54,287 bases of DNA from a virus. The number at the start of each line of letters is the position of its first letter. The first letter of the stretch is position 1. The notes beneath the pieces were generated by a model. It was not told where the DNA came from, did not search any database, and saw nothing but the letters and a program-made list of their open reading frames with translations. Positions 14,664 through 51,744 of this stretch are shown here, one piece after another. The position numbers were made by a program, and so were the translations under genes. Location of the stretch: the IMG/VR virus record IMGVR_UViG_3300017593_002049, positions 1 to 54,287 of that record. One strand, written 5' to 3'.

Positions 14664-14703
14664 GGAACACCAAGGCCGCCGTATCACTTAGCAGTGCCAT
14701 AAT
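14664..14703 (+). promoter_or_regulatory. late promoter A
   Basis: GGAACACC at 14664, then 26 nt, then CATAAT (14698-14703); no -35 hexamer. Start codon of the tape-measure gene is 31 nt after the -10 box. One of nine sites with the same architecture. Confidence 0.75.
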
Positions 14704-14734
14704 CTAATGACCGAATTATCAAAAGGCATAGATC

Positions 14735-17098
14735 ATGACATACCTAAACTATGATGCTGGCGGCTTTATCGTTGGCGTGAACAAAATTAATGATGGGATT
14801 GACCGCGTGCACGATGACACGCAAGAGATCATCCAAATATTAAAGAGCCAAAATCAAATTGCTAATACGCGCATGACTGAACTAACCAGGGCGGTGAGGA
14901 AGGCGACCTATCAAGCCAGCAGCCAGAGCAGCGTTAACAGCAACCGAGAACGCGCCGCCAGTGGTCGCACCTTATCCTCAAGTCGTATTACTGGCGAACC
15001 CGCCAGCATAACCCGACAAGCGCCAAGCGCCAGCCGGCGCACGCAACCAAACAGCAATACTCAAAACATTGGCAGTCAGGCTCACGCCGCAAGACGCAAC
15101 CAAGGCAGTGGTCAGACAGGTAGTGATACCGTGCCGATCAGCCGTGACAGCACTAATGCCAGCAGTCGAACGCGCAGCCCTAACAACGACAGCCCCGCCA
15201 GTACGGACGCAGCAGGGCGCGAACGTGACGCAAGAGGCCGTTTTACTGGGGGTGGTAGTAGCTCAGCGTCCGAAAACGAGCATAAAAAGCTGGGTTTTGG
15301 CTCATTAAGTGGTGGCCGCAGTGATACCAGTGGTATTGATCCATTGGTCGATAGTTTTAGAGAGGCAAAAGATCTTTTATCCCCGCTTGGACGCGTTGGC
15401 AAGCTGGCAGGTCGAGGGGTTAAGTTTAGCGTATCAAAACTAAAGGCCATGAAGCGGCGGGAACCGTTGCCAAACGATCAATCACGTCATAACAACGAAA
15501 ATGAAAAACTACTGGATAAGATACTAAAAGCCATTAGAAAGCAGCGTGGTAATGGTGCCGGCAGCGGTTTGATTGGCGGCTTGCTTGGCAGCAGTCGTGG
15601 TGGTCGTGGCGGCGGCCTTAAAAACCTATTTAAGAAAATGGGCGGCCTGAAAATGCTAGGGGCGCTTAGCGCCGTTGCTGGTACAGCTGGCCTTGCGATG
15701 GACTGGGATAACCTTGACTATCAAGGCAAATCAGAGGGCGTGGGTAAACTGGCGGGTGCTGGCGCTGGTGCAATCGCTGGAGCGACCGTTGGTTCAGTCG
15801 TGCCAGTGGTCGGCACAGCTATTGGCGCGGTTGTTGGTGGCTGGCTTGGTAGTGAGGGCGGCGAATGGCTTGGCGGCGTGGCTTCACCTTATATTGAGAG
15901 TTGGACAAGTGCGATCACAGCCTACAACTTGCCAGCAAAAATGAGCGACACATGGGATGAGGGTATCAAGCCGTTTTTTGCGACTATGACTAGTGCAGCC
16001 AGTAAATTCTATGAAGCTTCATTATCAGCAGTCTCAGCCGCAATCGACAATGTTGGCAACTTTATTGATGGTGGTATGGACGGCATAACGTCAGCCAATG
16101 CGGGGGCAAATGGAGCAACCGCAGCCAATTTGTCCGAAAAGCAAAACAAAAATCAAATGATGGTTTATGAGTCGTTTAGAAATGCTGGCTTGTCAGATGC
16201 TCAGGCAAGAGCTATGACGGCAGAGGTTGGACGCGAGAACAGCTACCAAGATAAATACTTGTTTGGTGGTCATAGCGACCCTGCTAATAATGAGTACAAC
16301 TTAGGTATGTTCTCATGGCAGAAGGAACGCGGCAAAAAGCTGTATAAGCACTTAAACTCTAAAGGTATGATTCAAAATGGCAAGATCATACAGTCGCAAG
16401 AGGCGTTGAACGAGCAAGCGAGATTCGCCGTTAATGAAATCAATACGGACCCTAGTTATAGTCGGACTAAGAAAGAGTTTTTAAACAATCCTAATGTGTC
16501 CTATGGGAAGGCCAATGAAGTATTAGGCCGAAATTACATACGCTGGCGCTATACCGACCCTCAGTATGCAAAGCATCACCAGTACCGCGATCAATACAAA
16601 GCGCTGATTGATCAGCAGTTAAAGCCCATTGAAGATACCACTATCATTGACGAGGCTAAAGAAAAGACGGGTAAGATTGCTCAAAACGTTAAAGATGCCG
16701 TTATACAAAAACAGCAAGTAAGTAAGGAGGTTGAAGGTTCGCTGGCAAATAAAGCTAAAAATAATAGCAGTGCGCTTGGCGTTGAGCTCGGCAAGATGAC
16801 ACCCAATAAAGGCAGCGCTGGTGACGTTAAGAGTAATTTTAGTGACAACACACCAATGATCTTTAATTCGAGCAAGTCAGCTGGCAAGGATCTTGGTTAT
16901 GCCCCCGCGCATTTTCCATCAACACCTATGCTGAATGTGCCTAATATGCCAAAGGTCAAACAGCGCCTCGATAGTGGCGGGGATAGTAAGCCGATCATGA
17001 TTCAAAGTAATAATGACAGTATTCATCAAAACGTGTCAGACCGCAGCTTGGCTCATGCTATTACAGGCGGGTTAGGCCAACAGCGTCAGTGGGGTTAA
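14735..17098 (+). CDS. tape measure protein with tail lysozyme domain
   Basis: 787 aa. Short structured N-terminus, then a Ser/Arg/Asn-rich low-complexity stretch (about 60-170), a Gly/Ala-rich hydrophobic region with membrane-like segments (about 300-390: LGALSAVAGTAGLAM, AGAGAGAIAGATVGSVVPVV) and a phage tail lysozyme domain at about 465-630 (NAGLSDAQARAMTAEVGRE, YNLGMFSW). This is the composition of tape measure proteins that form a membrane channel and cut peptidoglycan. At about 0.15 nm per residue it would set a tail of roughly 110-120 nm. It is unusually far (about 32 kb) from the tail chaperone genes. Confidence 0.65.
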   Translation: MTYLNYDAGGFIVGVNKINDGIDRVHDDTQEIIQILKSQNQIANTRMTELTRAVRKATYQASSQSSVNSNRERAASGRTLSSSRITGEPASITRQAPSASRRTQPNSNTQNIGSQAHAARRNQGSGQTGSDTVPISRDSTNASSRTRSPNNDSPASTDAAGRERDARGRFTGGGSSSASENEHKKLGFGSLSGGRSDTSGIDPLVDSFREAKDLLSPLGRVGKLAGRGVKFSVSKLKAMKRREPLPNDQSRHNNENEKLLDKILKAIRKQRGNGAGSGLIGGLLGSSRGGRGGGLKNLFKKMGGLKMLGALSAVAGTAGLAMDWDNLDYQGKSEGVGKLAGAGAGAIAGATVGSVVPVVGTAIGAVVGGWLGSEGGEWLGGVASPYIESWTSAITAYNLPAKMSDTWDEGIKPFFATMTSAASKFYEASLSAVSAAIDNVGNFIDGGMDGITSANAGANGATAANLSEKQNKNQMMVYESFRNAGLSDAQARAMTAEVGRENSYQDKYLFGGHSDPANNEYNLGMFSWQKERGKKLYKHLNSKGMIQNGKIIQSQEALNEQARFAVNEINTDPSYSRTKKEFLNNPNVSYGKANEVLGRNYIRWRYTDPQYAKHHQYRDQYKALIDQQLKPIEDTTIIDEAKEKTGKIAQNVKDAVIQKQQVSKEVEGSLANKAKNNSSALGVELGKMTPNKGSAGDVKSNFSDNTPMIFNSSKSAGKDLGYAPAHFPSTPMLNVPNMPKVKQRLDSGGDSKPIMIQSNNDSIHQNVSDRSLAHAITGGLGQQRQWG

Positions 17099-17108
17099 TT
17101 GAAGAAAA

Positions 17109-17138
17109 GTGACGCATTGTTATTAGCAGTGATACAAT
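17109..17138 (+). promoter_or_regulatory. extended -10 promoter
   Basis: GTGACG (17109-17114), 18 nt, TGATACAAT (TG extension, -10 at 17133-17138). It lacks the GGAACAC element and would let the following gene be expressed in the lysogen. Confidence 0.4.
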
Positions 17139-17165
17139 CGGCATTTGTTAGACTAGAGGTCAATT

Positions 17166-19414: not shown

Positions 19415-19454
19415 GGAACACCCCACAAGCCAGCCCCTGCAAGCCCCTTAAACT
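19415..19454 (+). promoter_or_regulatory. late promoter B
   Basis: GGAACACC at 19415, 26 nt, TAAACT (19449-19454). The -10 box lies inside the left arm of the hairpin 19443-19484. Confidence 0.7.
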
Positions 19455-19491
19455 AGACGTATTCACTACGTTTATTTAAGGGGCATTTTTT
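19443..19491 (+). terminator. terminator hairpin overlapping promoter B and the SD
   Basis: GCCCCTTAAA pairs with TTTAAGGGGC, and inside it TAGACGTA with TACGTTTA (one G-T pair), then ATTTTTT. The left arm contains the promoter B -10 box; the right arm contains AAGGGG, the Shine-Dalgarno of the gene starting at 19492. Read-through RNA would terminate and hide the SD; RNA started at B (about 19461, in the loop) has only the right arm. Confidence 0.75.
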
Positions 19492-20421
19492 ATGTCAAAA
19501 AGAACAGACCCAATCACTTACAACCTAGCAGATCGCGGCCGCAAGCATGTTGGCGTTGATCGGTCGGACATGAACGTTCAATCGATGATCGAACGTATTA
19601 ACGCGCCTGATGTTCAAGAGTTGGTTGCCAGTGGTGATCTATACGGTTATTACGGCCATGAAATACGCGCACGTTTTGGCATGAACCCGCCTGATGTTTG
19701 GCTAAACCCCAAGACTGGCGAAAACATACGGATTGAGCCAGCCCTACGCACAATCGAGCTAAGCGCCGACAGTGACGGCAATGTCACATCAAGACATGAG
19801 TTTTTAGATACCGATACTGGTAAATACTCACAAAAACTTTATACGAGCAAGGCTGGCGGGTTTAGCAGCGCCGTTATGCGCAAGCGCGGTGAGTCAGGTA
19901 AGTTTGATGTCACAAGATTTTATGGGTTCGACTACGTTCGCCAGCCTAATTACAACACCAATCGCGGTAGCGGTACGTTCGATAGCTTGTTTTGGCTAGA
20001 TGAAGATGAAGCTGAAATGGCGTTTGACAGTATGGACGGCCTAACCCCGCAGCAAGCCAGCCACAAGGCAGCACTTGAAGCCGCTATTTTGCACCAGTAC
20101 GACAGTATAGCGACCGCCAACGAAGCGGACGTGATGATCAGTCATTACCAAAACGAATTAATGCGATCACAGGACGAGCAGGTTAGCCGCCAAGAGAAAC
20201 TAGAGCGCCTACGCCAGCGCCGCCACGACCGCAAACAAGAGGTTTTTGACAGCTTGATTTGTCCGTCAGTTGATTTTGGTCAAGCTATGGCGCAGTGGGA
20301 TAACTTCAATGCGCAAGGCACAAGTGATCTTGATCTACGCACGATAGCCGATAGCAAGCAAGCCAAAGCGGATCAAGAGGCACATCACCGTGAACGCACC
20401 CGCATTTTCAAAGGCCGCTAA
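19492..20421 (+). CDS. putative prohead maturation protease
   Basis: 309 aa. GDLYGYYGHEIRARFGM (His56) and KAGGFSSAV (Ser125), about 69 residues apart, resemble the His/Ser arrangement of herpesvirus-type and HK97/gp21-type capsid maturation proteases. EPALRTIEL and RHEFLDTDTG lie between. The C-terminal part is helical and basic and carries FDSL at 163, FDSM at 178 and FDSL at 252, the same motif found in the capsid protein N-terminus, suggesting self-processing sites. The first gene of cassette B, with large terminase at the end of the cassette. Assignment is by pattern only. Confidence 0.5.
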   Translation: MSKRTDPITYNLADRGRKHVGVDRSDMNVQSMIERINAPDVQELVASGDLYGYYGHEIRARFGMNPPDVWLNPKTGENIRIEPALRTIELSADSDGNVTSRHEFLDTDTGKYSQKLYTSKAGGFSSAVMRKRGESGKFDVTRFYGFDYVRQPNYNTNRGSGTFDSLFWLDEDEAEMAFDSMDGLTPQQASHKAALEAAILHQYDSIATANEADVMISHYQNELMRSQDEQVSRQEKLERLRQRRHDRKQEVFDSLICPSVDFGQAMAQWDNFNAQGTSDLDLRTIADSKQAKADQEAHHRERTRIFKGR

Positions 20422-23596: not shown

Positions 23597-23635
23597 GGAA
23601 CACAGCCCATCAAGCCAGCTGGCACGCTGTAAAAT
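23597..23635 (+). promoter_or_regulatory. late promoter C
   Basis: GGAACACA at 23597 and TAAAAT at 23630-23635: start-to-start distance 33 nt, one less than in the other eight sites. Drives the fibre/baseplate cassette. Confidence 0.65.
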
Positions 23636-23672: not shown

Positions 23673-26057
23673 ATGGCGGCAAATATAAGTTCTGTTATTT
23701 TCAAAATAACCAAGGCTGGCAAGCAAGCAGCATTGGAGGCCAGCGGCGATAGCGCAAAGATATTGATTGATCTGTCTTATGTGGCTGTGGGAACCAGTAA
23801 ATACACCCCAACAGGCAATGAAACTGGGTTAAAAAACGAGATCAGTCGCGGTAGCGTTGTGTCCGCTGAGATTGACGAAAATACCTTGCGATTTTCTACC
23901 ACGATTTATAGCGATACTATCGTGCCAGTCTACGAAATGGGGATTTTTACCAAGTCAGGCGTATTGTTTGCGGTGGCCGCATCCAATAGCAGCCCTATTG
24001 TCACGCTTTACCCTAACATCGCGTTTGTGACCTCGTTTGGCTTGGCGGTAGACGATATTGATGCAGGTAGCATTACGGTCAACACAGATCACAATAGCGT
24101 CCTTGCTAATACCCTGATGCAAAACCACTTAGCCGCCGTGAACCCGCACCCTCAATACGTGGCAGTCAGCCGCTTTCAGTTCCTTTTGGATGTATTGTTC
24201 CCTATGGGTTACTTGTACTACTCGCACAGTACAACCAACCCTAAAGCCAAGTTTGACCAGCTGCTAGGTATCGATACGTCATGGCGTAGGCTGGCTGGCA
24301 GAATTATTGTCGGTACAGATCCAAATGACAATTACATTAAGGACGCAGGTTTAACGCTTGGCCAAAAGGGTATGACCGATCTTGCTGGCAGTAACGAACG
24401 GCCAAACGTCTACCCGCTTCAAACAACCCATATTTTTGAGCGTTACGATCCAAACGATGTGATCGTGACAGTATGGAATATCAGCGCCAACAAATCGTCT
24501 GTCACTGAGGGCGGCGTGGTACGCTTTACCGTGACGGCAAACAACATACCTGATGGGCAGATCTTAGACTGGACGGTGAAAGAGGGGCGGTTAAATAGCG
24601 CAAGCAATGATGTAACCTCGCCTGATAAGTCTCAGACTGGCACGGTTATTATAAAAAATGGTAGTGCAACGATTGATTTTACCACCACGCCTGATGACAA
24701 CGCCGCTGAGCCGCAAAAGCATGTACGGCTAACCGTTGGCGCACCCGCCAGCCTATCAATAAACGTACCTATCAACGATCTTGGCAACAACGAAACAGCA
24801 TTGCATATCACGCAAAGCACGACCAATGGTATGCAGCTTGATGAATACTACAAACAGCAAAGCGGCAGCTACCCTACATCGACCGATAAGATCCGCTTTA
24901 TCGTTGATGCTGGCGTGGATATTATCGCACCCAACACTAGCAAGCCAGCCTTGATAGACGGTGATAAATGGCCGTCAGGATCTCAAATTGTTGTTGAGAA
25001 TCGCGGACGCATTTTAGGGCGCGGTGGCGCGGGCGGGCTTGGTGGCACTTTTCTTGACGGTTACAGTAATTTTAGCGCAAACACCTCAACACCAAAACTA
25101 CTCGCAACGAAAGGCGGTAACGGCGGCACAGCGATCAAGGGTGATATGCTAGTAGAAAATTACGGCCTCATTGCTGGCGGCGGCGGTGGCGGCGGGGGTA
25201 ACGGTAGCTGGCGCTTAAAAGAATCAGACAACTATCAGATTTACATGGGCGGTGATAGCTCAGGCGGTGGCGGCGCACCTTTAGGGGAGGCGTTTTACAA
25301 CAGAACGCATATAGAGGGGTGGTTAAATGAGCCAACCATTAACAGTGCTGCTATCGACAACCTAAAAGAGATCATAAGACTTGCTAACGTGCCAGTCGAG
25401 GGCAAAAATGATGATATTTCAAATATTAGCCTCAGACCTGATGAAAAAAACTGGTTCGCTAACTACTTGCGCAACACTGAGTACAACTACACGACAGGCT
25501 ATAGCGCCGCGCCTATTGTTGACGCGTTAGGGCTTAAAGGAACGGCGGTTACAGTGACTATGCCTATCCCCAAAACAGGCTATATGACAGCTGATAGCGT
25601 TGGCGTGTCAGACAGCTACTTTAACGATCCTAACACCTATTTTGTTGATACGTGGACGGCAGGTAATAGCCCGACATACAAAGCAAGCCTACCTATGCAA
25701 AACCCTTTTGCTGGCGAGACTTTAAAGGGCGGTAAGGGTGGCTTAGGGTTTACTTCAACAACCTCATTCGTAAGGTCGCATGCTAAACGAGCGTTTGAGG
25801 GCAAAAGTTACGAATCCTTTATGCGTGCAGGTAGCGGCGGTGATGTTGGCGAAAGCGGAGAGGGCGGCCATTTAAGTCATGTTAGTGTTTACACCATAGG
25901 ATCGCCTAATACTTTCAACATTACAGCCATTGAAGATATACCAAGCGACTTTGTTATTCAGACAACGCCAGCGGCCAGCGGTGGCCTTGCAGGTTACGTT
26001 AAAGAGGGTAGCGCAACCATTACCAACTATTCAGCTGGTACAACCAAGGGGCGTTAA
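23673..26057 (+). CDS. tail collar fibre with Gly-rich tip
   Basis: 794 aa. N-terminal phage tail-collar fibre domain (DUF3751-like; about 1-265, IKFTITKAG-type start IFKITKAGKQA, VYEMGIFTKSGVLFAVA, HPQYV), an Ig/Calx-beta-like domain (about 270-370, SVTEGGVVRFTVTANN) and a C-terminal receptor-binding part with Gly-rich loops (GRGGAGGLGG, AGGGGGGGGNG, GGGAPLGEA), as in gp38/J-tip adhesins. It decides host range. The next gene is a truncated paralogue of the first 250 residues. Confidence 0.75.
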   Translation: MAANISSVIFKITKAGKQAALEASGDSAKILIDLSYVAVGTSKYTPTGNETGLKNEISRGSVVSAEIDENTLRFSTTIYSDTIVPVYEMGIFTKSGVLFAVAASNSSPIVTLYPNIAFVTSFGLAVDDIDAGSITVNTDHNSVLANTLMQNHLAAVNPHPQYVAVSRFQFLLDVLFPMGYLYYSHSTTNPKAKFDQLLGIDTSWRRLAGRIIVGTDPNDNYIKDAGLTLGQKGMTDLAGSNERPNVYPLQTTHIFERYDPNDVIVTVWNISANKSSVTEGGVVRFTVTANNIPDGQILDWTVKEGRLNSASNDVTSPDKSQTGTVIIKNGSATIDFTTTPDDNAAEPQKHVRLTVGAPASLSINVPINDLGNNETALHITQSTTNGMQLDEYYKQQSGSYPTSTDKIRFIVDAGVDIIAPNTSKPALIDGDKWPSGSQIVVENRGRILGRGGAGGLGGTFLDGYSNFSANTSTPKLLATKGGNGGTAIKGDMLVENYGLIAGGGGGGGGNGSWRLKESDNYQIYMGGDSSGGGGAPLGEAFYNRTHIEGWLNEPTINSAAIDNLKEIIRLANVPVEGKNDDISNISLRPDEKNWFANYLRNTEYNYTTGYSAAPIVDALGLKGTAVTVTMPIPKTGYMTADSVGVSDSYFNDPNTYFVDTWTAGNSPTYKASLPMQNPFAGETLKGGKGGLGFTSTTSFVRSHAKRAFEGKSYESFMRAGSGGDVGESGEGGHLSHVSVYTIGSPNTFNITAIEDIPSDFVIQTTPAASGGLAGYVKEGSATITNYSAGTTKGR

Positions 26058-27099: not shown

Positions 27100-28285
27100 T
27101 TATCCCGAAGACTTTTTGAGTCCTGATCGTGAAGACAGCACCAGTTACCAAGATCGACAGCTTAACGGCATGACGCTTGACGAGCTTAGACGCTGGCGCA
27201 CACAGACAGGCAAAACCGTTGGTCAGCAGCGCAAGCACGCCAGCCGCCAAAAGCAGTATTTTAAAGACGTATTGCAGGATATCGAGCAGGGCGAACGCCT
27301 GACGACCAAAAAGCTAGCCTCATTGGTTAAGACGGCCAAAAACAGGGCTGGCATTAGCGCTGGCGAGTTACTAGAGTTCACGCTAGGCGATACCAAGCGC
27401 AACCGTGAGTTAAAAAAGACGCTTAACGCCGCGATACTTGATGCCTACCTCGCCCATGTCAAAGCGGCCTCAAACAAGTTTTTAGGCGGGATCACGCCGC
27501 AACAGGTGATCAATCAATCCCGCGTAGAGGATATCAAGCGTGCTAATACTCAGATCCACCTTGCCAGCGTTTTTAAGCGCAAGGGTAACGTGATCCATTT
27601 TGTCACGAACGCAGGTATCGGTAGTAAGGACACGCACCACTATGTGACGGTGCAGTTGCTCGACTATCCAAACTTGCTGCTAGGCTGTACCAAAGCGCCA
27701 AGCGTGGTGAACGTTAAGAACGCCGTCATTGACGGTAAAATACGGTTTGATTGTGACTGTGGTCGTCATCGCTACTGGTACAGGTATGTGGCCACCGTGG
27801 GCAAGTACAATTATGGCCTTGATGAAAACCGATACCCCTCAACACGTAACCCCAAACTAACTGGCGTGGCTTGTAAGCATGCCTTACGTGTCATGAAGTA
27901 CGTTATCAGTGCGCACATGATCGCCAAGATCAAAGATTATGCGCGTGAAGACATAGCCAAGGCCAGTAACCAAGTTAAGTCGCACCGTAGGCCAGCCAAG
28001 ACGCTAGAACGTGAAGCCATGAAGCAAACAGAGGCGCTTAACAACTGGAATGGCCATTTGCATTGGAGCAAAAAGATCAAGCAAGCCGCTACCGCCGCGC
28101 AAAAGCAGATCAAGGCTGAGCAGAAATGCCAGCAAGCCAAATCACCTCACCAGCCAACGCAAGCCGAACGCGCCAGCTACCAGTACGCCAAAAATCAGCT
28201 GGGCAAAAAGAACGTGCCAGCCAATTTTAAAGAGATCTATCAGACCGAAATTAACAACTATCAGAAAAAATGGGGCAACAAATGA
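27092..28285 (+). CDS. SWIM zinc-finger protein of the late region
   Basis: 397 aa. A SWIM-type zinc finger is visible: C221-D-C223 ... C261-K-H263 (FDCDCGRHRYWYRY, VACKHALRVMKYV). The flanking regions are very basic and helical (N-terminus RKHASRQKQYFKDVL; C-terminus KQAATAAQKQIKAEQK). SWIM domains bind DNA or protein. It is translated with fibre and baseplate genes, so it is probably a minor virion or assembly protein; its exact role is unknown. Confidence 0.6.
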   Translation: MDNYPEDFLSPDREDSTSYQDRQLNGMTLDELRRWRTQTGKTVGQQRKHASRQKQYFKDVLQDIEQGERLTTKKLASLVKTAKNRAGISAGELLEFTLGDTKRNRELKKTLNAAILDAYLAHVKAASNKFLGGITPQQVINQSRVEDIKRANTQIHLASVFKRKGNVIHFVTNAGIGSKDTHHYVTVQLLDYPNLLLGCTKAPSVVNVKNAVIDGKIRFDCDCGRHRYWYRYVATVGKYNYGLDENRYPSTRNPKLTGVACKHALRVMKYVISAHMIAKIKDYAREDIAKASNQVKSHRRPAKTLEREAMKQTEALNNWNGHLHWSKKIKQAATAAQKQIKAEQKCQQAKSPHQPTQAERASYQYAKNQLGKKNVPANFKEIYQTEINNYQKKWGNK

Positions 28286-28848
28286 GCTTACGGATAGAAA
28301 ACGAGCTGGTGACGAACGGCCAGCGTTTGACCAATCGCCTTATTACGTTACGAAGCCAGTCAGTGATACCGACATTCGCTTTTAGACGGACGGTTTTGCC
28401 AGTCGATGACAGTACCAACGACCGCGACCGCGATACTTGGTCAGGCTTAGGATCGGTAAGCAATAGCGATGAACACGCGATCGATTATGAGCCATTAGGT
28501 CATGCGATGGTTTTAATGCTCGATAGCTTGGGCGGCGCGTTTCACGATACTGGCAATTTTGTTTTGCCCGAAGAAATGTCATCGATCGTACTTGTTGAGC
28601 CTTACGATATCGAATTACAGGGCGATGAGCGCTTAAAAAATATGCCAAACTGGGAACCAAAAAAAGGCGATCTTCTTTGTTTCATGCTAAATGGCCATAA
28701 GGAATACCACGAAGTCACAGGTATTATGGCGCAAGCAATGCTTGCCAGCGCTGGCAAGCGATATGCACTGGCGCAGCGGTTCGATCTTGATTATCTTGAC
28801 GCGTTCGATGAAGCCGACATAAAAGACGTGGCCACACCCTACGAGTAA
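28282..28848 (+). CDS. hypothetical late protein
   Basis: 188 aa starting at the ATG that overlaps the previous stop (ATGA, 28282-28285). A longer frame from 28270 is possible. Alpha/beta composition with NELVTNGQRLTNRLITLR and a C-terminal acidic tail (DLDYLDAFDEADIKD). Last gene of cassette C and followed by a terminator. Similar in position to neck or tail-completion proteins, but not recognised. Confidence 0.45.
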   Translation: MSLRIENELVTNGQRLTNRLITLRSQSVIPTFAFRRTVLPVDDSTNDRDRDTWSGLGSVSNSDEHAIDYEPLGHAMVLMLDSLGGAFHDTGNFVLPEEMSSIVLVEPYDIELQGDERLKNMPNWEPKKGDLLCFMLNGHKEYHEVTGIMAQAMLASAGKRYALAQRFDLDYLDAFDEADIKDVATPYE

Positions 28849-28868: not shown

Positions 28869-28897
28869 AAAAAAGCCGCCTAATAAGCGGCTTTTTT
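28869..28897 (+). terminator. terminator before late promoter D
   Basis: AAAAGCCGC / GCGGCTTTTTT stem; ends 7 nt before the GGAACAC element of promoter D. Confidence 0.9.
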
Positions 28898-28903: not shown

Positions 28904-28943
28904 GGAACACCCCTAAAACGCCCATTTGAAACGCTATTAACAT
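28904..28943 (+). promoter_or_regulatory. late promoter D (major capsid)
   Basis: GGAACACC at 28904 (extended CCTAAAA), 26 nt, TAACAT (28938-28943). The start site should fall near 28950, inside the left arm of the inverted repeat 28943-28952. Confidence 0.75.
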
Positions 28944-28997
28944 TAATCCTATCAGTTTAGATGTTCTATCACTATCCAACCGACCACATAGGATTAA
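28943..28997 (+). promoter_or_regulatory. SD-sequestering inverted repeat
   Basis: TTAATCCTAT (28943-28952) and ATAGGATTAA (28988-28997) are perfectly complementary. The right arm contains AGGA, the ribosome-binding site of the major capsid gene at 29002. RNA started at promoter D loses most of the left arm. Confidence 0.55.
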
Positions 28998-31531: not shown

Positions 31532-31547
31532 GCGACTGGCGACCATG

Positions 31548-31572: not shown

Positions 31573-31600
31573 TATCTTAAACTTATTAATAGGATTGATT

Positions 31601-35280: not shown

Positions 35281-35823
35281 ATGAAACTATCAAACATTAC
35301 AGCAAAGACAAAATTAGTGGCCGACTTCTCAAAACGCCTTTCTCGTAGCACCAAACAAAAGATAGTAGACACAGCCGTTGAAAAGGTAAAGCGGCTATCA
35401 GGCGCAAGCGTGCGCCCAGTCAGCATGGCATTAGAGAACGGCCAAACGGTTAAGATCTATTTACGCTTGGTTGATAACGGCGAAAAATACGACATATTCC
35501 GCATTGATGTTAACGGCAAAATGATCCCGCTATCAGGTGATTTTGACAACAGTTATAGCGATTCGTTTAATGCCTCAGTCGATGCGCTAGCAACCATGAT
35601 CAACACAGGGCAAAAGAAGTTTGACGCTAAGCGTGCCAAGATGAAAGTGCGCAAGACACCCGCTGGCGGTAAAAGTAGAGCCAATCGACCGATGAATAAA
35701 TCGCAGCAGCGTAACGCCTTGTTTGACGAGATCGCAGATCTTGACGCGATTATCAAAACTAAGGCCGAGGAAAAAGCCGCGCTAACGGATCAGTTGGCCA
35801 AAATCAAAGCAAGCAATAAGTAA
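35281..35823 (+). CDS. basic head-associated protein (hypothetical)
   Basis: 180 aa, basic. N-terminal helix (KLVADFSKRLSRSTKQKIV), a beta-rich centre (VKIYLRLVDNGEKYDIFRID) and a Lys/Arg-rich segment 117-145 bounded by FDA (114) and FDE (148), then a coiled coil. The flanking FD motifs suggest virion packaging with processing, as for the bipartite protein before it. Family not recognised. Confidence 0.45.
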   Translation: MKLSNITAKTKLVADFSKRLSRSTKQKIVDTAVEKVKRLSGASVRPVSMALENGQTVKIYLRLVDNGEKYDIFRIDVNGKMIPLSGDFDNSYSDSFNASVDALATMINTGQKKFDAKRAKMKVRKTPAGGKSRANRPMNKSQQRNALFDEIADLDAIIKTKAEEKAALTDQLAKIKASNK

Positions 35824-38650: not shown

Positions 38651-38684
38651 AAAAAAGCCGCCTTTAATCTTGGCGGCTTTTTTT
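38651..38684 (+). terminator. terminator before late promoter G
   Basis: AAAAAAGCCGCC / GGCGGCTTTTTTT stem, 17 nt before the promoter G element. Confidence 0.9.
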
Positions 38685-38700: not shown

Positions 38701-38740
38701 GGAACACCCCTAAAAGGTACGGCTAATAACTTGTCAAAAT
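38701..38740 (+). promoter_or_regulatory. late promoter G (tail tube)
   Basis: GGAACACC at 38701 (extended CCTAAAAGG), 26 nt, CAAAAT (38735-38740). The -10 context AACTTGTCAAAATAACC is almost the same as in promoter H. An imperfect inverted repeat, ACCCTTATT / AATAAAGGT (38743-38770), reaches the SD. Confidence 0.75.
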
Positions 38741-38777: not shown

Positions 38778-39398
38778 ATGAAGACAAACACCCCAAGCCT
38801 TGCAGCATACCGCAAGCAATACCAAACCATGAAGTCACTAGGCGCGGCTATGCTCGCTTGTAACGCCGTTTTGGTTATTGAGGGCTACGAGAACCTATAC
38901 ATGCTGCTACAGAACTTCCAGCGGCCAATTACCAGCCACCATGACTCAGCCGATGTGGATGCAGCACGCGGCTTACAGATGCACGCAGCTGGCACGCGTA
39001 AAACCAACTTTGAGTCACAATGGACGTTTATTGAAACCGAAAGCGGCGTTATCTCACAGTTTGCAGACGACTTGGTGAATATTCACAACGGCATTATTCC
39101 ACTGGCACGCGTTTATGACGGTTTTGTTGATGACGGCGATAACATCAAAGGTATGCGCGAATATGAGCTTATCGATTGTGCGATCACGTTTGCTGACGGC
39201 GGCGGTGAGATCGATGCGGCCAGCCGCAGCCAAATCCTACAGGTACAGGCAAGTTGCCGCTACAACTACTTTGGTAATAGCAGCAAATTAGGCTCAACAG
39301 GCACGGACGTTTTCGCTAATACGCTAAACAGCGCACTAAGCACTCTTGGCGGCTTAACCCCATCATTCACTTCAAATGACGTTACCATTTTTGGTTAA
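38778..39398 (+). CDS. probable tail tube protein
   Basis: 206 aa. FESQWTFIETESGVISQFADDL, in parts TFIETESGVISQ, and ELIDCAITFADGGGEIDAAS, then ILQVQASCRYNYFG, fit a tube-type beta barrel. Own late promoter and terminator upstream indicate high expression, as expected for the major tube subunit. A related protein is encoded at 43020. Confidence 0.55.
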   Translation: MKTNTPSLAAYRKQYQTMKSLGAAMLACNAVLVIEGYENLYMLLQNFQRPITSHHDSADVDAARGLQMHAAGTRKTNFESQWTFIETESGVISQFADDLVNIHNGIIPLARVYDGFVDDGDNIKGMREYELIDCAITFADGGGEIDAASRSQILQVQASCRYNYFGNSSKLGSTGTDVFANTLNSALSTLGGLTPSFTSNDVTIFG

Positions 39399-43660: not shown

Positions 43661-43700
43661 GGAACACCCCTAAAGCGCCCACCTAAAAACTTGTCAGAAT
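43661..43700 (+). promoter_or_regulatory. late promoter H
   Basis: GGAACACC at 43661 (extended CCTAAAGCG), 26 nt, CAGAAT (43695-43700). CCGTATCT (43703) can pair with AGGTACGG (43725) by 8 bp with one wobble, covering the SD of the gene at 43737. Confidence 0.75.
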
Positions 43701-43736
43701 AACCGTATCTTATTAATTACTCATAGGTACGGCTAA

Positions 43737-46700
43737 ATGGCATACACCACACAGAATAAAGCGCACAGCACCCACCACATCCCAACCCCCAACGGTCAAT
43801 CGTTCAGTCGGTACAGCCGTTATGAGACTGGCACTATCACTGGCAAACATCGTGACATGCCAGCCGTAATAGCTGATAGCACAGGCTTTGATAGCTTGGG
43901 TTTCGATAGCACGGTCGATAGTGCTGATGATAGCTGGCACGTTGTGAACGTTTTTGACTCGGTAAACACTTATATCGACAGTATGGCTATTGGCGGCGCG
44001 ATGGATAGTGACCACGCGTTACATATCGCCAATGCACAGATGGACAGCTTGGGCGGCGCTACTTGTAAGCTCGTCACCAATAATGCCGCTCAGTTTGACG
44101 GTATTGATCACGATCATACATGGTCGATTGATGCCATTAACAAGTTAATGAGCAACCCCTCACAAAACAAAAGCTACCTACCAGTAATTACCGCACCTGA
44201 ATTGATCGTTGAGGCTGAGCGCGTCACTTTTGATAGCGTGCAATGGAGCGATGATAACCATCTAATCAGCCATGGCGGTAAAGACAGCAACCTATACCTT
44301 GACCTTACCCGCGCCGATACCCGCCATGAACTTGTTACTGACTTTGATTTAGCAGACGCGCTTTTTGAAATGGACGCAGAGGAGGCGGGTTTTGACGCGT
44401 TGATGACAGAAAAACACCGCTTACACACCCTAAAGGATCGCTTGTTTCAAGCCATGGTACAGGCTGGTGATAAACCGCCAGCCATGCGCGAAAAAGGCGA
44501 CACCACGCCAGCCGAAAAAGACACAGGTTTTTACGTGGCCAACGTCACGCAAACCAAAGAGTTTAAGCGCCAAGGCGTGATTAATATCGCGTTTGTCTTT
44601 GATTTGTCGGACGGCCAAAAGCTGTCTATTTGGTTCCACAAGCCGCTAGAGTCCTCATCCAAACTGCTACCAAGCGACTACATGGTGTCGTGGAAGTGGA
44701 TGTTGAATAAGCGTGATGTAACCGCCGCCTTATCACCAAAACACGGCGAAAACGTGCAGTTGCCAGCGCTGGCACGCCGTATCATGCGTTTGGCCGCTAA
44801 GAACTCTAAACGCTTTAAAGCCGCGCAAGCACGCAAAGCTAAGGTTGAGCAAGAGCTATTGGACACAGAACAGATGGTCGCTGATAGAAAATCTACGATC
44901 AGCATGTTAGATATCGACATTATGGATTTAAACAAAAAAATCGATATGGCATTGCAAGCGCGTAAGGACGAGGCAGAGAAAGCGCCTGAGCCTGAGAAGC
45001 CAAAGGGCGGTGCTTTCTCAGAGGGTGACGCGGTTATATGGATGGGTGAGTACGGCGAGATCAGCCGTGGTACGTTCAAAAGTTATTCAGCTGATGGAAC
45101 TATGGCCACCTTTATTGATGAAGGTGGCCAAATGAACGCGCCAGTAAGCCAGCTGATTTTCAATCCTGACGTACAGCTTACGGATGAGCAGATCGCAGCC
45201 CAAAGCGAGGCCAATAAGTACAACGAAATGGAAGCGGTTATCAGCAGCTTGTCTAAGTCCAGCAAGCGTTTTAAAGAATGGGATATGACCATAGAGTCTG
45301 TCCAAGCGCTACCTAAAGAGCAGTTTTTTAGACTGGCTGATGCGCTGGCAGCGGCCAAAATGCCAGCTTACGAGCAGCTATTGACTGCTTATCGCGTAGG
45401 TAAGCAAGATTTGATCGGCATTGCTCAATCAATCATGGACAACGAGAGATCAGCTGGCCAAACAACCATTGGAATTACTAAGCGCCGCGAGCGTTTGGCG
45501 CAAATATTAAACACCGAGTTAACGTTGGTGGGATCAAAAAAAGATGACAACAGCAATGAGGACGCGACAGTCTCTATCACAGGTCAAGAGATAGACGTGA
45601 GCGAGGGCGTAGACTTCAAAACCGCCAAAAACAATGCAATGGCTTATTTTGATGAAAACCTAAAAGACAAGGTAGTTTTTTGCCGAGCTATTGATAGCGA
45701 TGTGGCCTTGAAGCGCCGTGGTGGTAAGCATATTGCAAAAGCAAATCATACATTCCGCGACAAATTACAGCTGGTTGCCGCGATTCCCGAAATGATCAAA
45801 AAAGGTAAGTATCACAGCTACACCGAAGCATACAAAGACAAAGCCCCGAATATATATGGTTACTATATTTTGACGGTATCGGTAGAAGTTGATGGTATCG
45901 CTAGAGATGCAAGAGTGGTACTTGAGAAAACAGATAAAGGCGAAGCGCTTTATGATATTGGAATAAACAAAAAAGAAGCCTTGGCAGCTCTAGGGGATGC
46001 TGTCTCAAACGAATCGTTTGATCGGCTCTCCGATCCCAGCCATTACCAAGGCTTAGATAAATCTTATCAAGATGATAATGAAAGTGTCAAGCAATTTGAC
46101 AAAGTGCCAACGAACGATGAGGTAGCTAATGACTTGATCTTAAATATTTTCTTTGATGAAGATTTAGACCTTACCAGCGACACCACTACCGATAACAAAG
46201 TAACCAAAGGCAGCGTCAACGAGTCGACGACAGTCAAAGCCACTAAGATCAGCAGTAATTTTGCGCTAGTAGAAGCAAAAAAACTAATCGTATCGCATGA
46301 TGCGGCAGGTGTTGCCAATCCTGATTTTCCACAAGCACTACAGCCGCGTGATCGTAGCGATAAAAAATCCGTTGAGGCGATCAAGGCCAATGCTAAAAAA
46401 CTTCAACCCGAAAAACTAGGCCAAACAGACCGAGTGGGGAACGGTGCGCCTATCGTGGGTGATGACTTAGTTGTTGAAAGTGGCAACGGTAGAGCTATGG
46501 CCGTAAAGCTGGCATACGACAATGGCGATGCCGAAAACTACCGCGCATGGCTTGTTGAAAATGCTAATGAGTTTGGGTTTAGCGCTGAACAGGTCGAAAA
46601 CTACAAACAGCCAGTGTTAGTGAGGGTTCGCACGACCGCTATAGATAGAATGGATTTTGCTATTGAAGCAAATCAAGACGGTTATCCACAATATTTCGAT

Positions 46701-47993
46701 AACGAAGAAAGCGGCGATGGAGTAGAAAAAACCGTTTCAGTTTATGTCAACAGCCGTGGCCGCGTACTGGCCACCGTAACCGAACAGGCTGGCAAGTACC
46801 ATGTCAAAGGCGAGAACTTTAGCGGCGGCAATTATCCTGATGATGCCAGCGTTCTAAAACAGCTTGAAGTGATCAAAGCAAGCAACGCGTCCATGAAGCT
46901 AAAAGAGGGTAAAGAGTTTTTTAGCGCTGATGATACTGGTAAGAGCTACCCGCCAGTAGAGCGCGATCAAGACGGCAACTATATCGCTTACATGGACAAC
47001 ACCAAAAAAGATCATTGGTCAGCAGCCATGCAATCGGACGGCAGCTTTATCGTCTACCCCGACAACGCCCAAACCCGCGCCTATAGAAACAGTAAGCCTA
47101 AATTCTTTGACGGCGTGGCAGACCTATTGGCCGCATACCCCGCGTTTAAAGGTATTGAAAAGCTAATCGCTGAGGAATTGCAAGCCGAAGCTGATTATGA
47201 CGAATACGATGAGATCGACAGCAGCGAATACCCGCAAATGTTCCTAGACCGCAATAAGGACAAGCTAAACATTTTAGGTATTGGCGATGACGATATTCAT
47301 GTCGGACTTGAAGACGACTACGAAAATAAATCGGATTATAACGACCTATACCACATTGACAGCGGCCTTTTTGCACGACAGACGCTAAATTTTGCCGATG
47401 CCGTTTGTAAGACCGTGGACGCGGCGATCTCGCTTGGCGCTGATGCTGTGGTTGGTGACTTTACCGCTACCGCTTATCAAAACTCAATGTTTGACGGCCT
47501 AGATAGTAAATCTAACCCAACTTACGGTATCACCGTTCAGATCGAAAAGGGCGGCGTTTACTTGCGTGCTGAGATCAATGCGTATGGAGAGTGCAAGATA
47601 TTAAAAGGTGCAAGCGGTACTGACGTTATTACCACGATTAAGCACGTATTCACTGACAACACTAACGAATATCAATCAGCGCTGGCAGACGCGCTAGACA
47701 TACAGGTAGATGAGGATATGACCACAACAGATACGCATGACATACCTGATGCCACTCTACCGGTCGAGCCAGCTGAAAGTGCACTTGCTAAACGTATCAA
47801 TGAGATTGAGCAGCAAATGAGCACCGCCGACTTTGACCCCACGGCAGTTGATACTGACGAGCTCATCGACTTGGTAGATCAGGTTGAGGACGATGCCGAG
47901 CTTACCGCCAAGCTAGAAGCTATCAGCGTGACCTTGCAGCAAAAAACGATTGCTATCAGCTTAAGAGCCCTTACCGACATGGCTGGCGCGTAA
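43737..47993 (+). CDS. giant polyvalent protein: DarA-like + LPD-like + DdrB-ParB
   Basis: 1418 aa. Residues 1-230 hold a cluster of FDS-type motifs (FDSL 51, FDST 56, FDSV 73, FDGI 120, FDSV 165, FDAL 219) and look like a head-targeting propeptide. Residues about 262-370 (FVFDLSDGQKLSIWFHKP, YMVSWKWMLNKRDVTAAL) match defence-against-restriction DarA-related proteins. About 618-770 looks like a large-polyvalent-protein (LPD) domain. About 835-970 (LIVSHDAAGVANPDFPQALQ in part, DDLVVESGNGRAMAV, QPVLVRVRT) is a DdrB-like ParB domain. By analogy with P1 Dar/Ddr proteins it is packaged in the head, injected and protects phage DNA. Confidence 0.7.
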   Translation: MAYTTQNKAHSTHHIPTPNGQSFSRYSRYETGTITGKHRDMPAVIADSTGFDSLGFDSTVDSADDSWHVVNVFDSVNTYIDSMAIGGAMDSDHALHIANAQMDSLGGATCKLVTNNAAQFDGIDHDHTWSIDAINKLMSNPSQNKSYLPVITAPELIVEAERVTFDSVQWSDDNHLISHGGKDSNLYLDLTRADTRHELVTDFDLADALFEMDAEEAGFDALMTEKHRLHTLKDRLFQAMVQAGDKPPAMREKGDTTPAEKDTGFYVANVTQTKEFKRQGVINIAFVFDLSDGQKLSIWFHKPLESSSKLLPSDYMVSWKWMLNKRDVTAALSPKHGENVQLPALARRIMRLAAKNSKRFKAAQARKAKVEQELLDTEQMVADRKSTISMLDIDIMDLNKKIDMALQARKDEAEKAPEPEKPKGGAFSEGDAVIWMGEYGEISRGTFKSYSADGTMATFIDEGGQMNAPVSQLIFNPDVQLTDEQIAAQSEANKYNEMEAVISSLSKSSKRFKEWDMTIESVQALPKEQFFRLADALAAAKMPAYEQLLTAYRVGKQDLIGIAQSIMDNERSAGQTTIGITKRRERLAQILNTELTLVGSKKDDNSNEDATVSITGQEIDVSEGVDFKTAKNNAMAYFDENLKDKVVFCRAIDSDVALKRRGGKHIAKANHTFRDKLQLVAAIPEMIKKGKYHSYTEAYKDKAPNIYGYYILTVSVEVDGIARDARVVLEKTDKGEALYDIGINKKEALAALGDAVSNESFDRLSDPSHYQGLDKSYQDDNESVKQFDKVPTNDEVANDLILNIFFDEDLDLTSDTTTDNKVTKGSVNESTTVKATKISSNFALVEAKKLIVSHDAAGVANPDFPQALQPRDRSDKKSVEAIKANAKKLQPEKLGQTDRVGNGAPIVGDDLVVESGNGRAMAVKLAYDNGDAENYRAWLVENANEFGFSAEQVENYKQPVLVRVRTTAIDRMDFAIEANQDGYPQYFDNEESGDGVEKTVSVYVNSRGRVLATVTEQAGKYHVKGENFSGGNYPDDASVLKQLEVIKASNASMKLKEGKEFFSADDTGKSYPPVERDQDGNYIAYMDNTKKDHWSAAMQSDGSFIVYPDNAQTRAYRNSKPKFFDGVADLLAAYPAFKGIEKLIAEELQAEADYDEYDEIDSSEYPQMFLDRNKDKLNILGIGDDDIHVGLEDDYENKSDYNDLYHIDSGLFARQTLNFADAVCKTVDAAISLGADAVVGDFTATAYQNSMFDGLDSKSNPTYGITVQIEKGGVYLRAEINAYGECKILKGASGTDVITTIKHVFTDNTNEYQSALADALDIQVDEDMTTTDTHDIPDATLPVEPAESALAKRINEIEQQMSTADFDPTAVDTDELIDLVDQVEDDAELTAKLEAISVTLQQKTIAISLRALTDMAGA

Positions 47994-48856: not shown

Positions 48857-48858
48857 TC

Positions 48859-49596
48859 ATGACCACAACACTAACCATCCAGCTATTAAATGAAAGCGTA
48901 AGCTTACCTGATCTCACTATCGGCGGTGCGATAGACATTGCTCATATACCGTCAGAGTTTAACGAAAAACGCCTGAGCGCTTTAATCGGCCATTTAATCG
49001 GCGATGCAGCGCTGGCAGGTCGATTAACCGCGCAAGAGCGCTATTACATACTGCTAAACCATCAAGCCACCACCAGCCACAAGTACAACGCTGATGACGC
49101 TGGCGCAAACGATGAGTATATGTTTGAAACCATCCAATCAGACGTGCCAAATGAGGTGCAGGTGGGCGAGCTGACAATCAATCACTTACTGGGCGCTCAT
49201 GTTGTTGTTTTAGAGGGGATCTGCGAAAACGTGGCCGACTGGCTGATCGGACAAATGGCGTGCCAGCTTAGCGGCAATCTAGCCAGCATTATTGGTGGTG
49301 AAGACGTTGTATGGGAACCAATGCCAGCAACAATGACTGACAGCGAGATCAATGCAGCCATTCAAGAACGATTTAAGTTTATCAACGGTTTATCTGCTAC
49401 GAGCAAGTTTAACGATCTTGTCGATGCCTATAGTAACGGCACATATCAGCTGGCGCACTTTGTCAAATTAGGTAGCGACAATAAAGGCTTAACCGTTATT
49501 AAGTCAGGAGGTGACGGCGATATGGAGCCGTCACGATTTCACACCCTTGACCATTTATCAGGGGCGGCCGCAAGACTTGCAACATGCCTTGCTTGA
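48859..49596 (+). CDS. tail assembly chaperone (short form)
   Basis: 245 aa from the ATG at 48859. Soluble, beta-rich N-terminus (LTIQLLNESVSLPDLTIGGA) then helical (LSALIGHLIGDAALAG). It overlaps by 86 bp a second frame (49511-49795) lacking a usable start, the classic layout of the G/GT or E/E' tail chaperones. Here the second frame is +1. A GGGG run at 49561-49564 could allow tRNA-Gly to slip by one base. Confidence 0.5.
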   Translation: MTTTLTIQLLNESVSLPDLTIGGAIDIAHIPSEFNEKRLSALIGHLIGDAALAGRLTAQERYYILLNHQATTSHKYNADDAGANDEYMFETIQSDVPNEVQVGELTINHLLGAHVVVLEGICENVADWLIGQMACQLSGNLASIIGGEDVVWEPMPATMTDSEINAAIQERFKFINGLSATSKFNDLVDAYSNGTYQLAHFVKLGSDNKGLTVIKSGGDGDMEPSRFHTLDHLSGAAARLATCLA

Positions 49597-49795
49597 GGAT
49601 GCTTTTACCATGGTGGAACACGGCAAAATGAGCTTATCAGAAGCCCTTAAAATGGGATTGTCTTTTGTAAAGTTGTATCGAGACTCACCAAGTTTTGAGC
49701 GCGTATCAAAAACTATTGAAGCCGAGCGTCTTTACAAGGTAGGGGTTATTGATCGTTTAAATGCAATTGTTACGACCAATTCAGCAAGACGATAA
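49511..49795 (+). CDS. tail chaperone extension (probable +1 frameshift product)
   Basis: Frame of 94 codons whose first candidate start, GTG 49511, lies inside its own AGGAGG and so is badly spaced; no other good start exists before 49610. If the ribosome slips +1 at 49561-49564, the product is about 311 aa with 235 residues from the upstream frame and a helical tail (RPQDLQHALLEDAFTMVEHG). Extended chaperones bind the tape measure protein. Confidence 0.5.
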   Translation: MTAIWSRHDFTPLTIYQGRPQDLQHALLEDAFTMVEHGKMSLSEALKMGLSFVKLYRDSPSFERVSKTIEAERLYKVGVIDRLNAIVTTNSARR

Positions 49796-49833: not shown

Positions 49834-50370
49834 ATGAGCCACAAAGTCGCCACCGCAAAAATTGCGCTGGCAAACATTGTTGGTAACGGCGCGAATGTGG
49901 CTGCTGTCGGCGCAGGTGGTGAGGTTTTCGCCCGCGAGCTTGGTCAGACGCATTTGTTCTTGTACCTAAATTTACCCATTTGGGTATTCTTTATCTTGAC
50001 CGTGGTGCTGGCCGCCATTGGATCGGTCGCATCCTTATACGTAGATGTAATGAAAGAGGCACGTTTGTCTTATACCCAAAAGTTTATGAATCTTGTGATG
50101 GGGTTTTTAGCGGGGTTGATCGGCGCATTTATCATTTTACCTACGTTTGTATCGAGTCCAACAATGGCGATGCTGATGTTTACAGGGCTATGTTCAGGGT
50201 TTGCAGGCACGCTACTGGTCTTCAATCTTGGCGAGGCTATCCGTAGTACTGAGCTCTGGGATGGTCTAAGAAAAATATTTACTACCTTCACCCTTAACGG
50301 TATCAAAACAATGGCAATGAGCCGCCTTAGGTTATTGGCTGCGTGGATTTTAAAGGAGGATGACAAGTGA
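49834..50370 (+). CDS. putative holin (LydA-like)
   Basis: 178 aa with three hydrophobic segments (LPIWVFFILTVVLAAIGSVA; LVMGFLAGLIGAFIILPTFV; MLMFTGLCSGFAGTLLVF) and a basic C-terminus. AGGAG is 9 nt before the ATG. Two genes upstream of the endolysin, so a holin of the LydA/superfamily III type is most likely: it opens the inner membrane for lysis. Confidence 0.55.
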   Translation: MSHKVATAKIALANIVGNGANVAAVGAGGEVFARELGQTHLFLYLNLPIWVFFILTVVLAAIGSVASLYVDVMKEARLSYTQKFMNLVMGFLAGLIGAFIILPTFVSSPTMAMLMFTGLCSGFAGTLLVFNLGEAIRSTELWDGLRKIFTTFTLNGIKTMAMSRLRLLAAWILKEDDK

Positions 50371-50756
50371 GCTACCTATACACACTATTTGACTGGCGCT
50401 TGATCAATCTCATTGCCCCATTTATTGGTATTACCGTATGCGTTTACCTACTGATGAGTAAAAACACTTGCACGGTCCAAAAGTCAATATCAACCATATT
50501 GGCGCTGGGCGTACTGTCGTGGCTCATGCTTATTTGGGCGGACTGGGGCAGCACCATATTTGAGCCCTCTTATCAGAGTGCTTTAGCACGGGTAATCATG
50601 GTCTTTATGATGCTGATTGTGGCTTTTGTTTTACGCCGTGCGACCAAGCGCAATCGATCTTTATCAATCAAAACAAGGATATTATCCGCTGAAAATGAGC
50701 TGCTAAAAGAACAGCTTAATATCATGCGCGGCAAAACCGAACCTACACAGGAGTAA
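50367..50756 (+). CDS. small lysis-cassette membrane protein
   Basis: 129 aa, GTG start overlapping the holin stop (GTGA), AGGAGG 7 nt upstream. Three hydrophobic segments (LIAPFIGITVCVYLLM; STILALGVLSWLMLIWA; VIMVFMMLIVAFVL) and a coiled-coil C-terminus (RILSAENELLKEQLNIM). Between holin and endolysin: antiholin or second holin. Confidence 0.5.
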   Translation: MSYLYTLFDWRLINLIAPFIGITVCVYLLMSKNTCTVQKSISTILALGVLSWLMLIWADWGSTIFEPSYQSALARVIMVFMMLIVAFVLRRATKRNRSLSIKTRILSAENELLKEQLNIMRGKTEPTQE

Positions 50757-50762
50757 TGCTTT

Positions 50763-51629
50763 ATGACTACTACCACAGTCACCGACACCGATATCTTTGC
50801 CAAATTGCGTGAGCACGTATCAGGTACCAGTATGCTGACACAACTGCTTGTTGATACTACCAATAAGGCAATGGAAGACGCAGCATTTCGCGATGAGCTT
50901 ATTGAGCGCTTAGGTGTAATACCTGCCGTATCAACAGAGAACAGACCATACAATCTCACATTGGCGAACCTTCGTAAGGTTTATCCTGGCGTCAATACTG
51001 AAGCGATTCCACTTATTTTAAAGTACGCACCGCAGTATGACATTTTGACTAAAAAGCAAATGTGTTCTTTTCTTTCAAACTGCATTGTTGAGTCCAACGG
51101 CTTTAATGCTAAGCGTGAAAGTTTTGCTTATACAGCAGGTCGATTGCGCCAGATTTTTAGCACTCGCATTGCCTCTATTGCAGCGGCTAAAAAATTATTG
51201 GCGAAAGGGCAGGTGGCCACGGCTAATTATCTGTATGGTGGGCGTTATGGCAATCGTCCTGGTACCAACGATGGTTGGGATTATCGCGGTGGCGGTATCA
51301 TTCAAAACACGTTCCGTAGTAACTACTATATCTTGCAGAACATGACAGGTATTCCGTTTGGCGAAAACCCAAAGCATATTGAAGATTTAGAGAATGCAGT
51401 AAAAGCAGCAATGGCTTTTTGGCAGTTAAACGGCTGCAACACCAAAGCTGAAAAAATCAATACGTATGATGATGGTTATACACTAAATACGCTGACTTCA
51501 AAGGGTATTGAAACCAAAGACTATAAGATGAATTATGGCGCTCGCATTGTCCGTGAGACGGTCAATGGTGGACTAAATGGCTATGAGCATTTTTGTCAGA
51601 CATTAGAAAAGTGCCTGCGGTATCTATAA
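50763..51629 (+). CDS. endolysin, GH19 chitinase-like
   Basis: 288 aa without signal peptide. GH19 pattern: FLSNCIVESNGF with the probable catalytic Glu near residue 117, FAYTAGRLRQIFSTR, GWDYRGGGIIQNTFRSNY, and the last helix FCQTLEKCLRYL. Degrades peptidoglycan after holin action. AGGAG is 9 nt before the ATG. Last gene of cassette H. Confidence 0.75.
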   Translation: MTTTTVTDTDIFAKLREHVSGTSMLTQLLVDTTNKAMEDAAFRDELIERLGVIPAVSTENRPYNLTLANLRKVYPGVNTEAIPLILKYAPQYDILTKKQMCSFLSNCIVESNGFNAKRESFAYTAGRLRQIFSTRIASIAAAKKLLAKGQVATANYLYGGRYGNRPGTNDGWDYRGGGIIQNTFRSNYYILQNMTGIPFGENPKHIEDLENAVKAAMAFWQLNGCNTKAEKINTYDDGYTLNTLTSKGIETKDYKMNYGARIVRETVNGGLNGYEHFCQTLEKCLRYL

Positions 51630-51671
51630 TAATATTTGTTTAAGGTTCAAATAGTAGTTAATAGACTTGAT

Positions 51672-51701
51672 AAAACCCCATCAATAATGATGGGGTTTTT
51701 T
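51672..51701 (+). terminator. terminator before late promoter I
   Basis: AAAACCCCATCA / TGATGGGGTTTTTT stem with ATAA loop, 3 nt before the promoter I element. Confidence 0.9.
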
Positions 51702-51704
51702 GTT

Positions 51705-51744
51705 GGAACACTATAAAAAGCATACCTTTTTTGTTTGCCATAAT
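51705..51744 (+). promoter_or_regulatory. late promoter I
   Basis: GGAACACT at 51705, 26 nt, CATAAT (51739-51744). A short repeat TTGATC / GATCAA (51744-51765) ends next to the SD region of the last gene. Confidence 0.75.

Follow-up and report, generated by a model that had tools for sequence, protein, structure and literature searches.

A repeated box before the late genes of a P1-like phage

The DNA analysed here (the window) is a fragment, a 54,287-base virus contig (IMGVR_UViG_3300017593_002049), whose gene content identifies it as a P1-like phage of Psychrobacter. The element in question is the heptamer GGAACAC, which recurs before the late genes at a fixed distance from a -10 hexamer. 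Window proteins match P1-type families of the PHROG database, namely the sheath (phrog_1036), Hdf-like, baseplate (phrog_1369), tube, portal and PmgG-like proteins. The portal shares 24.5% identity with P1 Prt (1e-19) and is 60–100% identical to portals from virus contigs and Psychrobacter genomes. Relatives of the phage are recorded as plasmids, and near-identity DNA searches with the window among phages and plasmids gave no match.

The window contains ten copies of GGAACAC, all of them + strand, against an expectation of 4.3 for both strands combined. A first-pass annotation, made from the letters alone, had placed nine copies, each 34 nt (33 nt at 23597) before a -10 hexamer; all nine coordinates are exact, and the hexamers and spacings are correct (Table 1). 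The extension CCCCTAAA that it reported at four sites is found at 28904, 32711, 38701 and 43661. GGAACAC spans about -46 to -40, and the distance from the -10 to the ATG is 35–64 nt at the nine sites. The early region, from 1 to 14.6 kb, is free of the heptamer, in line with the claim that the sites are restricted to late units.

We asked how far the pairing of heptamer and hexamer exceeds chance. GGAACAC followed at 33 or 34 nt by a -10-like hexamer was observed ten times, compared with 0.55 in shuffled sequences (maximum 3), a mean of 0.91 over 32 alternative spacings and none on the opposite strand. When every 7-mer was scanned blindly against every distance to a -10, in the window and in two relatives, GGAACAC at 34 nt came first. 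Alignment of 55 Psychrobacter phage sites gave the consensus (a)TGGAACACCCCnAAA, with a short A-rich patch 10–13 nt into the box, followed by a TAnAAT-like hexamer 26–27 nt past GGAACAC. No conserved -35 hexamer was seen over these 55 sites, as had been claimed for the window.

The tenth copy, at 49615, had been missed. We count it as a candidate promoter only, because it lies inside a conserved 94-aa gene (the surrounding open reading frame) and because the next gene would be preceded by a leader of about 180 nt. In four phages, the three codons of its box do not vary, whereas 13 of the 26 other conserved codons of the compared stretch are invariant. Downstream lie two unassigned genes, 49834–50370 and 50367–50756, and an endolysin gene, 50763–51629 (phrog_181), which together (49834–51629) probably form the lysis region.

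Conservation of the box and its variants in relatives

The predicted conservation in relatives was borne out by a motif search of the four other Psychrobacter phage genomes compared (G002–G005), which contain 11, 13, 11 and 11 pairs of box and -10, all on a single strand, with 0–2 reversed patterns per strand. All four carry at least one box, sometimes several, in the region corresponding to 31480–31620, before a 122-aa gene (31595–31963 in the window); in the window itself, this region is without a box and has a terminator-like hairpin. In two Psychrobacter host genomes, such pairs were not in excess over the reversed-pattern control, and we conclude that the box belongs to the phage. Because it is conserved at fixed spacing and found before late genes only, the sites are best interpreted as co-activated late promoters, which very probably constitute a late regulon. 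The idea of nine late cassettes thus stood in its essentials, although the count had left out the candidate tenth site.

Variant boxes were detected at 33–36 nt from the -10 across Acinetobacter, Xanthomonas, Burkholderia and Pseudomonas elements. Acinetobacter WCHA55 has GGAATA (15 sites versus 1 on the other strand), A. baumannii phage ABMM1 has GGAAC[C/T] (13 versus 1) and A. oleivorans has GGAACAA (11 versus 0). Xanthomonas phage Rb1 has GGAAAA at 34–36 nt (12 versus 0), and Burkholderia pBVIE05 has AGGAAAA, with its GG at 34–36 nt (9 versus 0). For a P. fluorescens plasmid, the blind scan returned GCAAACC at 35 nt (9 of 16 copies). P1 itself has no GGAACAC/-10 pair. A P1-like plasmid of Vibrio alginolyticus yielded no clear box at this spacing, no Lpa and no homologue of the candidate activator described below; it may control its late genes in a third way.

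GGAAC frequently forms the core of the -35 elements of extracytoplasmic function sigma factors, and on that ground a host factor or an alternative sigma factor could be thought to recognise the box. We regard this as very improbable: the gap of 26–27 nt to the -10 is too long for a -35 element, the -10 is sigma70-like across five host genera, the pattern shows no excess in the Psychrobacter host genomes, and the box differs between phages of one host genus.

A candidate activator at the end of the early region

Two early-region genes are kept from Psychrobacter to A. soli: 11702–12400, encoding a helix-turn-helix (HTH) protein, and the overlapping 12393–13328. The HTH protein exceeds the curated HTH_3 cut-off narrowly in the window (23.5 bits versus 23) and clearly in two relatives (37.1 and 32.3 bits). 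A tblastn search with it retrieved nine Acinetobacter plasmid records, one Rhizobium record (a short match) and phage ABMM1. A hidden Markov model (HMM) of the family matched Rb1 (4e-12), pBVIE05 (6e-11) and P. fluorescens (1.4e-11), and detected no member in P1 or the Vibrio relative. The family is present in every box-bearing genome examined.

The HTH gene follows a nuclease gene and precedes a putative small terminase gene (in the window the terminase assignment is tentative), which is the place of lpa in P1. P1 Lpa shows no similarity to the HTH protein. A phmmer search at full sensitivity found no Lpa homologue in the window, which may be incomplete, or in its relatives, which include complete plasmids. 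In an alignment of the HTH family, proteins from genomes with a GGAA[C/T] box retain the NR..E pattern of the predicted recognition helix, and those from genomes with GGAAAA or GCAAACC depart from it; this is a correlation only. From this synteny and co-occurrence, the HTH protein probably is the activator of the late regulon and would bind the late box. AlphaFold models (mean predicted local distance difference test scores of 46 and 62) were too poor for fold searches. A CII-like protein (7524–8045) was rejected as the activator, having been matched in only one of the relatives compared.

Hairpins that embed the promoters

Many of these promoters are contained in the left arm of an inverted repeat, such as GCCTATACTG...CAGTATAGGC-ATTTTATTATG at 32711, a feature absent from the first-pass annotation. 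By shuffling, 34 of the 55 Psychrobacter phage promoters carry a hairpin at p≤0.05 (2.75 expected by chance) and 27 of 55 at p≤0.01; at p≤0.05, box-less window genes of equal geometry gave 2 of 34, and shifted positions gave 25 of 235. The right arm contains Shine–Dalgarno-like bases in 30 of the 34 significant hairpins. The register of the hairpins shifts between homologues, and their support comes from shuffles, matched controls and energies. In predicted foldings of the hairpin classes, read-through leaders reach about -14 to -24 kcal/mol and promoter-started leaders about -1 to -5 kcal/mol. As the left arms lie mostly upstream of the expected start, promoter-started transcripts would lack most or all of the left arm.

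Some box-bearing promoters have an ordinary terminator just upstream (Table 1). Over sites, strong hairpins and strong ordinary upstream terminators tend to exclude each other (odds ratio 0.066, p=1.7e-4). This scarcity of strong hairpins where a separate terminator is present, together with the T-run that many hairpins carry, would fit hairpins that merely terminate the preceding unit, overlapped with the promoter to save space and without a role in translation. That is possible but somewhat doubtful, given the Shine–Dalgarno-like bases in most right arms and the classes at 28904 and 43661, which pair the Shine–Dalgarno sequence and have no T-run. The statistics establish the hairpins themselves; by analogy with T4 gene e, it seems fairly likely that they also keep read-through RNA from being translated. 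In T4, gene e (and also soc, 49 and I-TevI) has its late promoter within the 5′ strand of a hairpin, and in read-through RNA this hairpin masks the Shine–Dalgarno sequence (PMC3014915). The phages studied here share with gene e a late promoter in the 5′ strand of a Shine–Dalgarno-pairing hairpin. Few T4 genes have this arrangement, whereas in the Psychrobacter phages it covers over half of the late regulon, the hairpin often bears a terminator T-run and the -10 is of the sigma70 type.

Acinetobacter phages have similar hairpins. Hairpins in the spacer between box and -10 were found at 4 of 11 sites in P. fluorescens, where they have a T-run, and at 4 of 10 in Rb1, with 0–1 per genome elsewhere. 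In P1, the -10 of LPsit (46608–46626, −) lies within a perfect 11-bp inverted repeat, CTCGTAGAATC...GATTCTACGAG (0/200 shuffles), and LPs has a hairpin at p=0.045. Since only LPsit (strong) and LPs reach p≤0.05 among the eleven P1 late promoters, promoter hairpins are not a general P1 feature.

Table 1 Candidate activator genes, late promoters, hairpins and terminators in the window (all + strand)
Feature	Position	Elements	Context
Probable late activator gene	11702–12400	232-aa Cro/CI-type HTH protein	PF01381 HTH_3, phrog_7396
Gene for 311-aa protein	12393–13328	HTH-like N-terminal segment	Overlaps HTH gene; placed like small terminase of relatives
Late promoter	14664–14703	Box 14664–14670; -10 CATAAT 14698–14703	Before tail lysozyme-like gene 14735–17098 (phrog_6922); conserved in G002, G003, G004, G005
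Late promoter	19415–19454	Box 19415–19421; -10 TAAACT 19449–19454	Before 19492–20421 (phrog_4727, fibre-like)
Hairpin over promoter 19415	19443–19484	Left arm GCCCCTTAAA 19443–19452 (-18 to -9); right arm TTTAAGGGGC 19475–19484 including Shine–Dalgarno, then ATTTTTTATG	Shuffle p=0.005; leader -24.3 (read-through) versus -3.8 kcal/mol (promoter-started)
Late promoter	23597–23635	Box 23597–23603; -10 TAAAAT 23630–23635; 33-nt spacing	Before fibre/collar gene 23673–26057
Ordinary terminator	28875–28897	GCCGC...GCGGC, T-run	Just before box 28904
Late promoter	28904–28943	Box 28904–28910; -10 TAACAT 28938–28943	Before 29002–30816 (phrog_1014)
Inverted repeat at promoter 28904	28944–28996	TAATCCTAT ... 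ATAGGATTA; Shine–Dalgarno in right arm, no T-run	p=0.010
Late promoter	32711–32750	Box 32711–32717; -10 TATACT 32745–32750	Before tail sheath gene 32784–34172
Hairpin over promoter 32711	32741–32776	Left arm TGCCTATACTG 32741–32751 (-16 to -6); right arm CAGTATAGGCA 32766–32776, then TTTTATTATG	0/200 shuffles; leader -19.2 (read-through) versus -2.2 kcal/mol (promoter-started)
Ordinary terminator	35169–35195		Just before box 35199
Late promoter	35199–35238	Box 35199–35205; -10 TACAAT 35233–35238	Before Hdf-like gene 35281–35823
Ordinary terminator	38657–38684		Just before box 38701
Late promoter	38701–38740	Box 38701–38707; -10 CAAAAT 38735–38740	Before tail tube gene 38778–39398
Late promoter	43661–43700	Box 43661–43667; -10 CAGAAT 43695–43700	Before 1418-aa gene 43737–47993, partial match to phrog_1926 (released on infection)
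Hairpin at promoter 43661	43700–43735	Left arm about 43700–43710; right arm about 43725–43735, with Shine–Dalgarno AGG; no T-run	p=0.035; leader -13.9 (read-through) versus -2.0 kcal/mol (promoter-started)
Candidate tenth site	49615–49653	Box 49615–49621; -10 TAAAAT 49648–49653; 33 nt	Within open reading frame 49511–49795
Ordinary terminator	51676–51701		Just before box 51705
Late promoter	51705–51744	Box 51705–51711; -10 CATAAT 51739–51744	Before 837-aa gene from 51774, cut by contig end, or nearly so

A model for late transcription

We propose that the late genes form about ten separate units, each with a promoter that has a sigma70-type -10, no -35 and the box TGGAACACCCCnAAA. The activator would be a product of the last early genes, most likely the HTH protein, and would bind the box beside sigma region 4, substituting for the missing -35 contact, so that all late units could start together. 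Many promoters would be insulated from upstream transcription, either by an ordinary terminator ahead or by a hairpin that contains the promoter in its left arm and the Shine–Dalgarno sequence of the gene in its right arm, often with a T-run. Transcripts started at the promoter, lacking most of the left arm, would be translated; read-through transcripts would be terminated or silent. We put the probability of this explanation as a whole (box regulon, HTH activator and insulating hairpins) at roughly 0.7.

Several observations weigh against it. The family of the HTH protein is better known for repressors, which usually bind palindromes, and the box is not a palindrome. In A. soli, the excess of sites was only weak (9 versus 4). 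The mutual exclusion of hairpins and terminators shows the same trend but loses significance when counted by promoter class (p=0.076), and this is the cautious figure because homologous sites are not independent. Finally, the 311-aa neighbour of the HTH protein is equally conserved in the same overlapping gene pair and has an HTH-like start. The box could accordingly be read by that protein or by an unassigned early protein, with the Cro/CI-type protein repressing, for example, early genes. We think this unlikely, since the counterparts of the 311-aa protein in P. fluorescens and Rb1 are small terminases (Terminase_2 in Pfam), which makes it more likely a packaging-site binder; in an HMM search of five proteins it also weakly matched the small terminase of Rb1 (5.6e-05). 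In WCHA55, the protein following the HTH gene (27338–28480, −) carries an extra N-terminal HTH-like segment, perhaps a domain duplication.

Relation to known late-control systems

P1 is a founding model of phage-plasmids, and Lpa with its -22 box is its described late-gene control. The P1 record annotates 11 late promoters with -22 boxes, which are scattered over the genome (PMC10695390); the window has nine, perhaps ten. The two phages have related virion genes and many late promoters that are scattered, possess a -10 and lack a usable -35; in both, an activator gene (here a candidate) stands directly before a small terminase gene (here putative), lpa and pacA in P1. They differ in that P1 uses a 9-bp box at -22 and Lpa (gp10), whereas the box of the window phage lies at -46 to -40 and its candidate activator shows no similarity to Lpa, a protein almost confined to Enterobacterales plasmids. 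A 9-bp box centred near -22 was not apparent, as no letters are conserved at -35 to -13 in the 55 aligned promoters. The first-pass annotation had set the phage against P1 as a comparable strategy with different sequences. The boxes do differ, but the phage belongs to the P1-like group itself, and its multi-cassette layout is accordingly a P1-type trait. It departs from P1 in the box, the position of the box (-46 rather than -22) and the probable activator.

Ogr of P2 and Delta of P4 are phage activators that act at several late promoters lacking a good -35. Ogr is a small zinc-finger protein that binds a dyad near -55, whereas our candidate is a Cro/CI-type HTH protein and the box has no dyad. 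Lambda CI and CII are HTH activators bound near -35 to -42, where they contact RNA polymerase; their sites are palindromic or direct-repeat, unlike the single asymmetric box with an A-rich patch seen here. A limited search of open-access literature found no description of the box, which is weak evidence of novelty.

Judging by these data, related phages from five further host genera (Psychrobacter, Acinetobacter, Xanthomonas, Burkholderia and Pseudomonas) seem to combine the layout of P1 with an unrelated regulator and a differently placed box; the late control module thus seems to have been exchanged as a unit. We give an even chance to the broader proposal that P1-like phages outside Enterobacterales have a second late-control system in common, with a Cro/CI-type activator acting from about -46, whose box has drifted with the protein at constant spacing (GGAACAC, GGAATA, GGAAAA and GCAAACC), together with regulon-wide promoter hairpins that act as terminators or conceal the Shine–Dalgarno sequence and would allow only promoter-started transcripts to be completed and translated. 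The box could guide the annotation of late units in many phage-plasmids that are uncharacterised so far, among them those of Acinetobacter baumannii. The hairpins would bring the T4 gene e trick to the scale of a regulon, which could be tested directly in an active phage; the title of PMC10345192 describes ABMM1 as active.

Neighbouring genes

A switch region at 6374–9079 encodes a repressor with HTH and S24 peptidase domains (6374–7156, −), the CII-like protein (phrog_101) and a relative of the antirepressor Ant (8351–9079). Between the early genes and the first late promoter lies an opposite-strand DUF4917 (PF16263) gene (13494–14474, −), possibly cargo. The gene at 4402–5526 (−) encodes a protein with a GmrSD-type N-terminal domain (PF03235), possibly defence-related cargo, and is located in a low-GC stretch (2–6 kb, 35% GC).

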